Shown: one piece after another, positions 6,210 through 11,462 of the stretch
How the letters are laid out: every line of letters starts with the position of its first letter
Position numbering within the stretch: the stretch's first letter is position 1
Assembly: GCF_005144885.1 (NCBI RefSeq)
Contig: NZ_CP039690.1
Coordinates: 3,857,001-3,921,000, forward strand
Direction: 5' to 3'
Source: Phreatobacter stygius
GTDB lineage: Bacteria > Pseudomonadota > Alphaproteobacteria > Rhizobiales > Phreatobacteraceae
Length of the DNA stretch: 64,000 nucleotides
Translations under genes and position numbers: made by a program
Notes under the pieces: generated by a model
What the model was told of the DNA's origin: nothing
The model's input: the letters and a program-made list of their open reading frames with translations, nothing else
The model's database searches: none

Positions 6210-7517
6210 CTACCGGCGGATGAACAGCGCAACCGTCGCGCTCATGGCGCTGGCGATGGCGACGAGCAGGAACACCAGCGACGTGTCGTTATGCGTGTCC
6301 ATGAACTTGCCGATGATCGGCTCGCCGAGGCCGGCGAACAGATAGGCGAAGAAGTTCATCACGCCGATCGCCGTGCCGGCGCGCTTGTGGCCGACGAGGT
6401 CGGGGCAGAGCGCCCAGAACGACGATTGCGGGCCATACACGAAGAAGCCGCAGAGGAAGAGCACGATCAGGCCCTTGTAAACGTCGGTCGCCGGGATCGT
6501 GTACATGTAGAGCGAGGTGATCGCCGCCAGCACCATGTAGAGCACGATGGCGAGGTAGCGCTTCGAGTTGAAAATGCGGTCGGACACCCAGCCATTGGTG
6601 GCCGCCCCGATCGCCATGCCGACGGGCAGCGCAATGCTGATCCATTTCGGGTCGATGACGGCGGTCTCGGCGCTCGCCTTGGCCCAGTTCGAGCCGAGGA
6701 AATGCACCGGCACCCAGATCAACAGGCCGTAGCGCGCGGCGTTCTGGAAGCCGATGGCGAGACCGCCGACCAGCAGGCGCCAGTTCTTCAAGACGCCCTT
6801 GTAGCGTTCCAGCGAGCTTTCGTCGTCGGCGACCGCCGCGGCCTTGTCGTTGTCGACCGCGTCGTCATGCGGCGACTTGAAACCCATGTCTTCCGGCCGC
6901 TCGCGCGCCACCAGATAGAAGGTGATGCCGCCGACCAGCAGCAGAAGCACCGGGATGCGGAAGATCCAGCGCCAGTCGAGATGCAGGTAGTGCACGACGA
7001 TCAGCGAGGTGACGAAGGACAGGACCGAAGCCAGGCCCGCAGCGAAGACATACCAGCCGAAAACCTTGCCGCGGTCGTGCCGCCCCCACCAGTTGGACAG
7101 CAGCCGGCTGCCCGGCGCCCAACCCATGGCCTGGAAATAGCCGTTGATGCCCCAGCAGACGCCGAGGCTGACGATGCCGGTGGCAAAACTCGTCGCCCAG
7201 TTCATCGCGCAGGACAGGATGGCGCCGGCGCTCATCACCCGGCGGCCGCCGAACTTGTCGCCGAGATTGCCATTGACCGCCTGGCCGATGGCGTAACACC
7301 AGAGCATCACCGCGCTGACCCAGCCGAGCGCCTCCTTCGAGACGCCGAATTCGGCCTGGATGCCGGGGATGGCGAAGCCGAAGGTCTGCCGTCCCGTGTA
7401 GAAGAAGAGGTAACAGAACATCGCCGCCAGAAGCATGCGCCACTGGGCTTTGCGAAAGGCCTCGTCAGTGGCGCCGGCGGCCGGATAGGCAGGCGTTGTG
7501 TAGGAGACACTGCTCAT
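6210..7517 (-). CDS. OPA-family (GlpT-like) antiporter, probable phosphonate permease
   Basis: This 435-residue protein has 12 predicted membrane helices. It matches the organophosphate:phosphate antiporter family: F-Y-T-G-R-Q-T-F-G-F-A-I-P in helix 1 and A-R-Y-G-L-L-I-W-V-P in helix 7. R43 and R262 align with the two phosphate-binding arginines of E. coli GlpT (R45, R269). It lies 118 bases downstream of phnY in a phosphonoacetate operon, so a phosphonate such as hydroxyethylphosphonate or phosphonoacetate is the likely substrate, exchanged for phosphate. A GlpT-like permease beside phnA is known from Pseudomonas (recalled). The start has GGGAGGGA upstream. The family call is strong; the substrate is inferred from context. 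Confidence 0.9.
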   Translation of the reverse strand: MSSVSYTTPAYPAAGATDEAFRKAQWRMLLAAMFCYLFFYTGRQTFGFAIPGIQAEFGVSKEALGWVSAVMLWCYAIGQAVNGNLGDKFGGRRVMSAGAILSCAMNWATSFATGIVSLGVCWGINGYFQAMGWAPGSRLLSNWWGRHDRGKVFGWYVFAAGLASVLSFVTSLIVVHYLHLDWRWIFRIPVLLLLVGGITFYLVARERPEDMGFKSPHDDAVDNDKAAAVADDESSLERYKGVLKNWRLLVGGLAIGFQNAARYGLLIWVPVHFLGSNWAKASAETAVIDPKWISIALPVGMAIGAATNGWVSDRIFNSKRYLAIVLYMVLAAITSLYMYTIPATDVYKGLIVLFLCGFFVYGPQSSFWALCPDLVGHKRAGTAIGVMNFFAYLFAGLGEPIIGKFMDTHNDTSLVFLLVAIASAMSATVALFIRR

Positions 7518-7625
7518 GATGGGTCCCTCCCAAGGGGCTTATTTGTTTTGGTTGGTCTTTTGAAGCGTGGTTTCGGCCGACCTCAGGCCGCGCGGTTTTC
7601 GGTTGCTGTTGGTGCGGGGGTGTCG

Positions 7626-7646
7626 GGGGCGCCGGTCAGGCGCCCC
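7626..7646 (-). other. Hairpin spanning the phnY stop codon
   Basis: An 8-base-pair perfect stem GGGGCGCC/GGCGCCCC with a 5-base loop contains the phnY TGA. No T-run follows, so it does not look like a strong intrinsic terminator. It lies between phnY and the permease gene and could stabilise the upstream mRNA or lower permease expression. Confidence 0.5.
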
Positions 7647-9090: not shown

Positions 9091-10341
9091 TCACCTCGCC
9101 AGGTTCAGGGCGACGTCGAAGACGTCGAAATTGCGCAGGGTCCGGCCGGCCGGAACCGCGATCCGGCGGTTGGCGATCATCGGCACGGTCTGTTCGGTCA
9201 GCCCGCCATGGGAGCGCAGCGGTTCGGTCAGGCCGGAGAGGTCGTGGCGCGCGGCCGCGGTGCCGAGAACCTTGTGGCGGGCGGAGAGCACCACCACGTC
9301 GCCGATCCGGTCGGCCGGCAGCTCGAAACGTTCGCAGGCCTCGTCCGCCGAGATCGACACCGCGATGCCCTCGACGCCCGCCAGAAGCTTGATGACCTCG
9401 GCTTGGCCTTCGGCATCGACATAGACGGTGGCAAACGATCCGAGCGCGCCGTGATGAGCGACGTAAGGGTCGGTGATCGGCAGGATGACGCGGGTCGCGC
9501 CGGCGCCGAACTGCTCATCCAGGATCTCCTGGAGATAGATCACATCGGGTTCGCCGTTCGCCAGGTGCTTGTCGTTCATGCCGTGGTCGGCGGTCATCAC
9601 CAGCGTGCAGCCGGCGTCATCCAACGCGCCGACATAACGGTCGAACATGGCGTAGAAGCTGTTGGCGACCTGAGACCCCGGCGCCGCCTTGTGCTGCACA
9701 TAGTCGGTGGTCGAGAGATACATGACGTCGGGCCGCAAACGCCTCAGCAGCCTGACGCCCGCCGCGAAGACGAATTCCGAGAGATCCGCCGAATAGACCT
9801 CCGGCAAGGGCAGGCCGACGAAATCGAGCACGTCGTCGATGCCGTTCTCGGCCCTGTTGGCCCTGTCCGCCTTTTCGGACGAGAAGGCGATGGCCGTGCC
9901 GCTGTCGAAGTCCAGGCCCTTGCCGAGCAAGGTCCTGAGCTTGTCCTTGGCGGTCACCATCGCGACCTTCAGCCCGGCCTTCTGGAATTCGGCGAGGATG
10001 GTCGGCGCGCGCAGGAAGCGCGCATCGTTCATCATCACCTCTTCGCCGGCCTCGCGGTCGTAGAAGAAATTGCCGGCAATGCCATGCACCGCCGGCGGCC
10101 GGCCGGTGATGATCGAGAGATTGTTCGGGTTGGTGAAACTCGGGATGACCGAGAGCGCGGTGGTGCTGGCGCCGGTCTTCATGAGCCGGTCGAGGTTCGG
10201 GGCAAGGCCGGCTTCGATGGCGCGCTCGATATAGCCCGGCTCCGAGCCGTCGATGCAGATCACCACGACGGGTTTGTCCGGCCGCCGGTAGGCGCGGCCA
10301 TTGGCGATGACGTCGGTCTGGGTCCTGTGGTGCATATTCAT
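9091..10341 (-). CDS. phnA: Phosphonoacetate hydrolase
   Basis: This 416-residue alkaline-phosphatase-superfamily protein cleaves the C-P bond of phosphonoacetate to acetate and phosphate using two zinc ions. Visible ligands and nucleophile are D31 (V-I-C-I-D-G-S-E-P), T70 in P-S-F-T-N-P-N-N, and the C-terminal metal motif T-A-D-H-G-M-N-D. D31 and T70 match the D29/T68 pair of the S. meliloti enzyme with a constant offset of two. The frame is open far upstream, but ATG 10341 with GAGGAGG at proper distance is the clear start. It lies between the alcohol dehydrogenase and phnY genes, with gaps of 14 and 3 bases. Confidence 0.94.
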
Positions 10342-10355
10342 GGTGTCGCCTCCTC

Positions 10356-11462
10356 TCAGGCCGCGGCGGCCAGCACCGCGTCGCGGCTGCCGATGAAATT
10401 GCGGCCGCGCTCGCCCTTCAGGGCCTCGTCGATCGCGCCGATCCAGTTCTCGCGGGTGACGCCGTAATCGGTCGCGCGGGTGGAGACGCCGAGGGCGGTG
10501 AGAAAGCCGTCGAGCAGGTCCGCGCCTTGCGCGAGATCGTCGCCGAAGATGCGCTTCAGCGCGGCGTCGCAGGCCTCGTCCTTGCCGATGACGCTGCGCA
10601 TCACCGCCGGCAGGCTGAACGAACAGGCGATGCCGTGCACCGTGCCGTGGTGCAGGGTGAGGTAATAGGACAGCGAATGGGCGAGCGCCGTCTTGGTGTT
10701 CGAGAAGGCGAGGCCGGCCGACAGGCTGGCGCGGGCGACGCGGGCCCGGAGGGCGACGTCGTCGAGCCGGCGCAAGAGCGGCGGCAGCGCCATCAGGATC
10801 TCGCTTGCCGCGAACACCGCGTGGTTCGCCGAGACCGGATTGGCGTTGACGTTCCAGATGCTTTCGAGTGCATGCGACAGCGCGTCGAGCCCGGTGCTGA
10901 GCGTCAGCGCGCGCGGGACGCGCAAGGTCAGTTCCGGATCGACAATGGCGTGTTCGGGATAGAGGTTCGGGCGGGCGAGCGAATATTTCTTCTTCGCATC
11001 CGTATCCCAGACGGTTGCCCATGAGGTCACCTCGCTGCCCGTGCCCGCGGTTGTCGGCACCGCGATGATCGGCAGGTTGAGCAGCGTCCAGGCGCCGCTG
11101 CGGCCCTCGAGAAAAGCCTGCACCCGGGCGAAATCGCCGCCCGACGCGGACAGCACCTTGGCGGTGTCGATCACCGAGCCGCCGCCGAGTGCGACGATGG
11201 CCTCAGGGGCTTGCAGCCCGGCTCCGAACCCGCGGCAGGCGACCCGCAAGCCGTTGAAGCTCGGGTTCGGCTCGACGTCGCGGACGATGACCGCGGCAGG
11301 CCCGGCCTCACGGGTGACCTGTTCCACCAGCGTGTCGAAATAGGGATTGTCGTTATAGGTCAGCAGGCAATAGCGCCGGCCGGCGAGCTTCTCGGCGATC
11401 GCGGCGATCGCGCCTTCGCCGAAGGTCAGGGCGACGGGGTTTGAATAGGTCCAGGATGACAC
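10356..11462 (-). CDS. Fe-type alcohol dehydrogenase, candidate 2-hydroxyethylphosphonate dehydrogenase
   Basis: This 368-residue group III alcohol dehydrogenase has the NAD-binding motif [12 protein letters not shown] (near 80-92) and the family signature [10 protein letters not shown]. The metal ligands are typical: D in T-G-L-D-A-L-S-H with its H, plus H in L-A-H-S-L-S-Y and in H-G-T-V-H-G. The closest described relatives by context are phosphonoacetaldehyde reductases of phosphonate biosynthesis; here, first in a catabolic operon, it would run in reverse. The GTG at 11462 is chosen, with GGGAGG about ten bases ahead; an ATG at 11516 adds a non-family tail. No AEP transaminase gene is present, so the alcohol substrate is an attractive inference. 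Confidence 0.85.

Follow-up and report, generated by a model that had tools for sequence, protein, structure and literature searches.

The stretch analysed here (the window) is 64,000 nt of contig NZ_CP039690.1 of Phreatobacter stygius, whose 7.35-Mb genome forms a single contig. It carries an intact operon on the minus strand, running from 11462 down to 6210, in which an alcohol dehydrogenase gene (psrA), phnA, phnY and a gene for a GlpT-like transporter of the major facilitator superfamily (MFS) follow one another, and which we propose to serve the breakdown of 2-hydroxyethylphosphonate (HEP). An earlier note, made from the sequence alone, had placed these four genes correctly; its span of 6210-11462 left out the divergent regulator gene. 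The features are, from the regulator downstream:

11567..12451, plus strand: divergent regulator of the LysR type, linked to phosphonates (TIGR03339, at 330.3 bits just under the cut-off of 341.1)
11552..11569, minus strand: conserved box CATAGRTTTTTTMTATAG between lysR and psrA, sharing bases with the lysR start codon; predicted LysR operator
10356..11462, minus strand: psrA, metal-dependent (Fe-type, group III) alcohol dehydrogenase, proposed HEP dehydrogenase (TIGR03405)
9091..10341, minus strand: phnA, phosphonoacetate hydrolase (TIGR02335, 3szy alignment)
7636..9087, minus strand: phnY, phosphonoacetaldehyde dehydrogenase (TIGR03250, 4i3t alignment)
6210..7517, minus strand: GlpT-like MFS transporter, proposed HEP importer (1pw4 relative)

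For psrA we chose the GTG preceded by GGAGG as start, a second in-frame GTG lying upstream at 11516, and for phnY the ATG at 9087, with a GTG at 9090 as a possible alternative. All three enzymes exceeded the curated cut-offs of their families: PsrA that of TIGR03405 (432.7 vs. 423.7 bits, profile positions 1-354 of 355), PhnA that of TIGR02335 (557.2 vs. 407.55) and PhnY that of TIGR03250 (795.5 vs. 635.65). PhnA aligned nearly end to end with the solved phosphonoacetate hydrolase 3szy (E 2.7e-166), including the Asp and His segments that we take to form its metal site, and PhnY almost end to end with 4i3t (E 6.5e-210), its catalytic Cys segment (QRC) intact. The best solved relative of the transporter is GlpT (1pw4, E 1.2e-29), yet it reached only 141 bits against the cut-off of 632.55 for the GlpT equivalog TIGR00712; judged by these scores it is a relative of GlpT and not the glycerol-3-phosphate transporter itself. 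Both phosphate-binding arginines are kept, as the earlier note had it: the columns mapped to GlpT R45 and R269, which we take to be the substrate-binding pair, are Arg in the 1pw4 alignment, and those mapped to K80 and H165 (numbering and roles likewise assumed) are Gln and Ala.

The reading of the first gene as a group III Fe-type alcohol dehydrogenase also held. In addition to TIGR03405, the Fe-ADH domains PF00465 and PF25137 were over cut-off, and the GGGS motif (93-96) and the Asp/His/His/His metal site (D193, H197, H262, H276) were invariant in an alignment of 86 PsrA rows; L082, whose frame is not cleanly readable, was left out of this alignment and of the tree made from it. An AlphaFold2 model built from 46 family members (mean pLDDT, the predicted local distance difference test score, 91.7) found its best solved fold in 6jko, the sulfoacetaldehyde reductase BkTauF (template modelling score 0.89, 28% identity), which was also the best match by sequence (E 1.5e-40, the chain there being labelled methanol dehydrogenase). 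In assays with NAD+ (nicotinamide adenine dinucleotide), BkTauF oxidises isethionate, which is the sulfonate counterpart of HEP; the activity of BkTauF is nearly abolished by T257A or F265A and kept at about 28% in F252A (PMC6616044, cited, like the other papers below, from excerpts). These residues, F252, T257 and F265, map by sequence alignment (with an offset of 5 set from the metal-site His) to PsrA F253, T258 and Y266, which are conserved in 86, 85 and 86 of the 86 rows, respectively. The Lys that precedes T257 in BkTauF maps to PsrA K257, where the rows show Lys (57), Arg (28) or Glu (1), a basic residue in 85 of 86; the two other Fe-ADH genes found in the P. stygius genome encode Pro and Gly at this position. 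Close to the metal site, a basic side chain would be a plausible partner for a phosphonate or sulfonate head group.

The earlier note had also stated that no transaminase is present, which is true of the operon and wrong for the genome. The psrA operon lacks phnW and so is not a PhnWAY operon for 2-aminoethylphosphonate (AEP), but a PhnW gene over cut-off (443.3 vs. 400.8 bits) lies about 202 kb away (C1:4070010-4071083), disproving the idea of a phnW-free genome. It belongs to a cluster of its own, lysR / phnW-phnA-phnY, with its own LysR gene alongside and with all three enzyme families confirmed. Between the two operons the PhnA proteins are 72% and the PhnY proteins 81% identical, and the phnA-phnY stretches share 78.8% DNA identity over 2708 aligned bases, whereas the first gene differs, being a transaminase gene in one and an alcohol dehydrogenase gene in the other. 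The presence of the same module twice, with its entry enzyme exchanged, strengthens the case for HEP. No phosphoenolpyruvate (PEP) mutase exceeded its cut-off in this genome (best 117 bits vs. 319.55), so that any HEP would come from outside, which fits the transporter in the operon. The operon is patchy within the genus, since PsrA was found at E <1e-90 in only two of 12 genomes, the P. stygius genome included.

Regulation appears to separate the two operons. The psrA-lysR box occurs once in the window and, at two or fewer mismatches, once in the whole genome, at the psrA operon; across a 20-kb stretch around phnW it gave no match at three or fewer mismatches. The box or a near copy stands in the window and in 10 of 22 relatives compared (Hyphomicrobiales and sphingomonads), the other 12 having more distant variants or none that could be placed, and it is probably the LysR operator. 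The earlier note had suggested looking for phnW elsewhere and had counted a phnW co-regulated with psrA against HEP as the substrate; the gene now found, in a separate cluster with its own LysR and no copy of the box, does not look co-regulated by this measure.

We next consider the neighbours of psrA in 86 loci (80 relatives from genome contigs and six from nine plasmid records), all scanned with phosphonate genes. PhnA and/or PhnY lay at most 10 kb from psrA in 29 loci (PhnA with PhnY in 23, both with PhnW in three, PhnA alone in three), PhnX in five and PhnW in three; the direct order psrA-phnA-phnY occurred in 18, and 68 had a divergent LysR gene no more than 400 bp upstream of psrA. Among 87 scanned loci, an importer gene was present in 67 (phnD-type in 51, GlpT-like in 16), and a homologue of the window transporter more than 60% identical to it in 16; the type of importer varies between psrA clusters. 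The complete chromosome of Pseudohalocynthiibacter aestuariivivens holds a 2836-bp phnA-phnY stretch twice at 100% identity (L107, L109), one copy behind phnW and the other behind psrA and a phosphonate ATP-binding cassette (ABC) transporter, so that the downstream chemistry is equal and only the entry differs. In related roseobacter drafts the psrA contig ends at or inside phnA, perhaps through the same duplication, which would hide PhnA from surveys. In the PsrA tree, four switches between phnA and phnX neighbours were needed, a rough count given its long branches and many open forks, and clustering of the five phnX rows barely exceeded that expected by chance (a value as low arose in 31 of 500 shuffles).

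Some loci carry further genes. Upstream of their psrA operons, L012, L016 and L091 (Rhizobiaceae or relatives) encode another ABC importer and a metallohydrolase of the CehA/McbA type; speculatively, these may bring in and cleave an ester or conjugate of HEP. A distant psrA relative (46%) on a Vibrio pelagius plasmid (L096) is accompanied by LysR and phnDCE, with no phnA, phnY or phnX within 8 kb.

Genome-wide searches for PhnW, PhnA and PhnX covered a hand-chosen 50 of the 80 genome loci. No PhnW, searched by the TIGR02326 model only, exceeded the cut-off in 16 of the 50, several of which are drafts or metagenome-assembled genomes; PhnA was over cut-off in 13 of these 16 and PhnX in the other three. 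PsrA therefore does not need PhnW. Laboratory isolates of Sphingopyxis and Methylobacterium (L024, L025 and L017) are examples that carry psrA-phnA-phnY and have no PhnW over cut-off. PhnA or PhnX was over cut-off in 44 of the 50, and the remaining six (L065, Frigidibacter; L067, L068, L071 and L074, Roseovarius; L079, Aliiroseovarius) have contigs broken at the psrA locus. In five of the six, the last 600 bases of the contig encode the start of PhnA (tblastn E 1.4e-6, 3.7e-8, 0.004, 0.002 and 1.4e-54, two of them weak), while those of L068 gave no PhnA match by tblastn and were judged by reading the last bases alone. A contig break at duplicated phnA copies, as present in the complete P. aestuariivivens genome, would explain these six, though this is not proven. 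PsrA is accompanied by a consumer of phosphonoacetaldehyde or of its oxidation product in nearly every genome examined. A partial PhnA match under the cut-off, with one in-frame TAG stop, was seen at G031:C41:24119-24865 and is perhaps a broken second copy.

Phosphonoacetaldehyde is the substrate common to PhnY and PhnX, and its plain alcohol is HEP. In the route we propose, the GlpT-like carrier would import HEP, PsrA would oxidise it with NAD+ or its phosphorylated form NADP+ to phosphonoacetaldehyde, and PhnY would oxidise the aldehyde to phosphonoacetate, drawing the unfavourable PsrA step forward; PhnA would then hydrolyse the C-P bond, giving phosphate and acetate. The divergent LysR, responding to a presumed inducer, would switch this operon on separately from the second one, in which PhnW would feed an equivalent PhnA-PhnY pair from AEP. 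Catabolism of HEP through phosphonoacetaldehyde and phosphonoacetate, as the earlier note had suggested, is supported by the placing of phnW in a separate cluster, the restriction of the box to the psrA operon, the 16 genomes free of PhnW and the conserved pocket residues. We consider it likely that the operon is a dedicated HEP catabolic route, the best supported reading, with the substrate of PsrA and the direction of its reaction deduced. The argument draws on what the genes are and how they are arranged, on the phnW operon that parallels them, on a promoter box of their own and on the pocket residues common with the isethionate enzyme, all taken from sequence; the HEP dehydrogenase function of PsrA is accordingly a proposal, from context and pocket conservation.

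Several observations weigh against this route. The regulator falls short of the phn_lysR cut-off. The P. stygius genome itself encodes PhnW and carries phnX and the C-P lyase gene phnJ as well, so the psrA operon need not be the sole HEP route. At 52 of the 86 loci none of phnA, phnY, phnX or phnW lies within 10 kb of psrA. In six of the 52 the contig ends shortly after the transporter genes, where phnA would begin, and about 30 (hand count) are Reyranella-type clusters such as L039 and L047, in which psrA stands first, ahead of phnDCE importer genes, and no C-P hydrolase is close by; 13 genomes of this type were searched (Reyranella massiliensis in detail), and in them full-length PhnA adjoins PhnW on another stretch, so that the link to phosphonoacetaldehyde is there genome-wide only. 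The count of PhnW-free genomes is softened by its drafts and by the other possible entries, PbfA, PbfC and PbfD not having been searched genome-wide, and one PhnW-free psrA cluster does hold a PbfD-family gene. This cluster, of a Rhizobium sp. RM isolate (L023:9001-13150) with no PhnW over cut-off, has psrA, a TIGR03364 (PbfD-family) flavin adenine dinucleotide enzyme and phnX in a row, and is predicted to bring together two routes into phosphonoacetaldehyde that need no transaminase. Lastly, the reactions of alcohol dehydrogenases can run either way, and the characterised relatives nearest to PsrA, BkTauF and PhpC, serve as reductases in cells.

The last point leads to the rival that PsrA runs in reverse and makes HEP from phosphonoacetaldehyde, the reaction of PhpC in biosynthesis, thereby converting AEP to HEP or draining the aldehyde away. 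Lockwood et al. (2022), who saw phpC-type genes within AEP operons, proposed such a reverse reaction (PMC9381506), and BkTauF offers a parallel among sulfonates, making isethionate from taurine-derived aldehyde in a proposed reductive role in taurine nitrogen assimilation (PMC6616044). PhnW occurs in the P. stygius genome and is over cut-off in 34 of the 50 psrA genomes, which leaves room for this direction. However, the psrA operon has no phnW, the 16 genomes above have none over cut-off, and the psrA promoter box is not found at phnW; PhnY and PhnA, encoded in this operon too, would compete with the reductase for its substrate, and reduction of an aldehyde made inside the cell would not call for an importer gene, which 67 of the 87 loci nevertheless have. 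We regard the reverse direction as unlikely. A biosynthetic cluster of the PhpC type was rejected, PEP mutase being over cut-off in one of 51 genomes and not in that of P. stygius.

It is similarly improbable that PsrA oxidises some other phosphonate alcohol, or a HEP conjugate, on the way to phosphonoacetaldehyde or a close analogue. The PsrA substrate is deduced, and importer types vary, so that substrates could vary too; but PhnY and PhnX act on phosphonoacetaldehyde, of which HEP is the plain alcohol, the near-invariant pocket in the 86 rows argues for one substrate class, and among solved structures the closest relative acts on the C2 sulfonate counterpart. That PsrA instead removes, as ethanol, acetaldehyde made by phosphonate hydrolysis would suit the five of 86 loci where psrA neighbours phnX, which releases acetaldehyde, but was rejected as very improbable because the window operon and 29 further loci adjoin PhnA and/or PhnY, which make none.

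Among known systems, the closest is the PhnW-PhnY-PhnA pathway for AEP (Sinorhizobium meliloti type), with which the psrA operon shares PhnY and PhnA, the order phnA-phnY and a divergent LysR, and from which it differs in a metal-dependent alcohol dehydrogenase for the transaminase, a different promoter box and a GlpT-like importer; it is a new variant of this known hydrolytic pathway. The gene family is not new, since NCBI already names it (NCBIfam TIGR03405, Phn_Fe-ADH, 'iron-containing alcohol dehydrogenase PsrA'), the window protein showing no family-level difference, and public plasmid annotation already marks psrA beside phnA and phnY. In the open-access literature we found no paper giving the substrate of TIGR03405 PsrA and none joining PsrA, phosphonate and alcohol dehydrogenase, although the NCBI gene symbol suggests some naming source; nor did we find one on a HEP dehydrogenase in catabolism, the only paper to turn up for such an enzyme being the PbfF study discussed below (PMC12366243), with most subscription papers lying outside the search. 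BkTauF resembles PsrA in fold, metal-site positions, substrate-pocket residues and C2 omega-oxyanion alcohol chemistry, and differs in sequence (28% identity in the fold alignment), in its sulfonate substrate and proposed reductive role, and in one metal ligand (Gln vs. His). PhpC (named in PMC9381506) is a phosphonoacetaldehyde reductase of phosphonate biosynthesis, and we take FomC to belong with it. The likeness of PhpC to PsrA lies in the reaction pair and the enzyme superfamily, no PhpC sequence having been compared, and PhpC works in biosynthesis alongside PEP mutase, which is not over cut-off in the genome of the psrA operon. The ancillary enzymes PbfA, PbfC, PbfD and PbfF likewise feed other phosphonates into the phosphonoacetaldehyde pathway, but from amino- or N-methylaminophosphonates (PMC8154272, PMC10590968, PMC12366243): PbfD1, annotated as a TIGR03364 member, converts N-methyl-AEP to phosphonoacetaldehyde (PMC10590968), and for PbfF the oxidation of HEP was considered and excluded by assay (PMC12366243). 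The survey in that work found clusters primarily by PhnW and would therefore miss psrA clusters without it.

Elsewhere in the window, two intergenic inverted repeats (3778-3888, with 45-nt arms that are 80% complementary, and 5867-6061, with 39-nt arms that are 92% complementary) flank a gene read, from its sequence and not by profile scan, as an ABC-F ATPase; they resemble repeated intergenic elements.

In marine dissolved organic matter of high molecular weight, HEP and methylphosphonate together make up as much as 20% of the phosphorus (PMC9381506), and the HEP degradation described in the papers we consulted proceeds via C-P lyase and gives ethylene (PMC5649143). The psrA route would also free the phosphorus, but would yield acetate. 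On balance we think it probable that PsrA, PhnY and PhnA (or PsrA and PhnX) form a widespread, undescribed hydrolytic pathway from HEP to acetate and phosphate, with a separately regulated AEP twin, without C-P lyase and without ethylene. If so, bacteria would gain both carbon and phosphorus from this oxidative-hydrolytic route, which would be invisible as ethylene, and surveys that take phpC/psrA-type genes as marks of production would in some cases be counting consumers.

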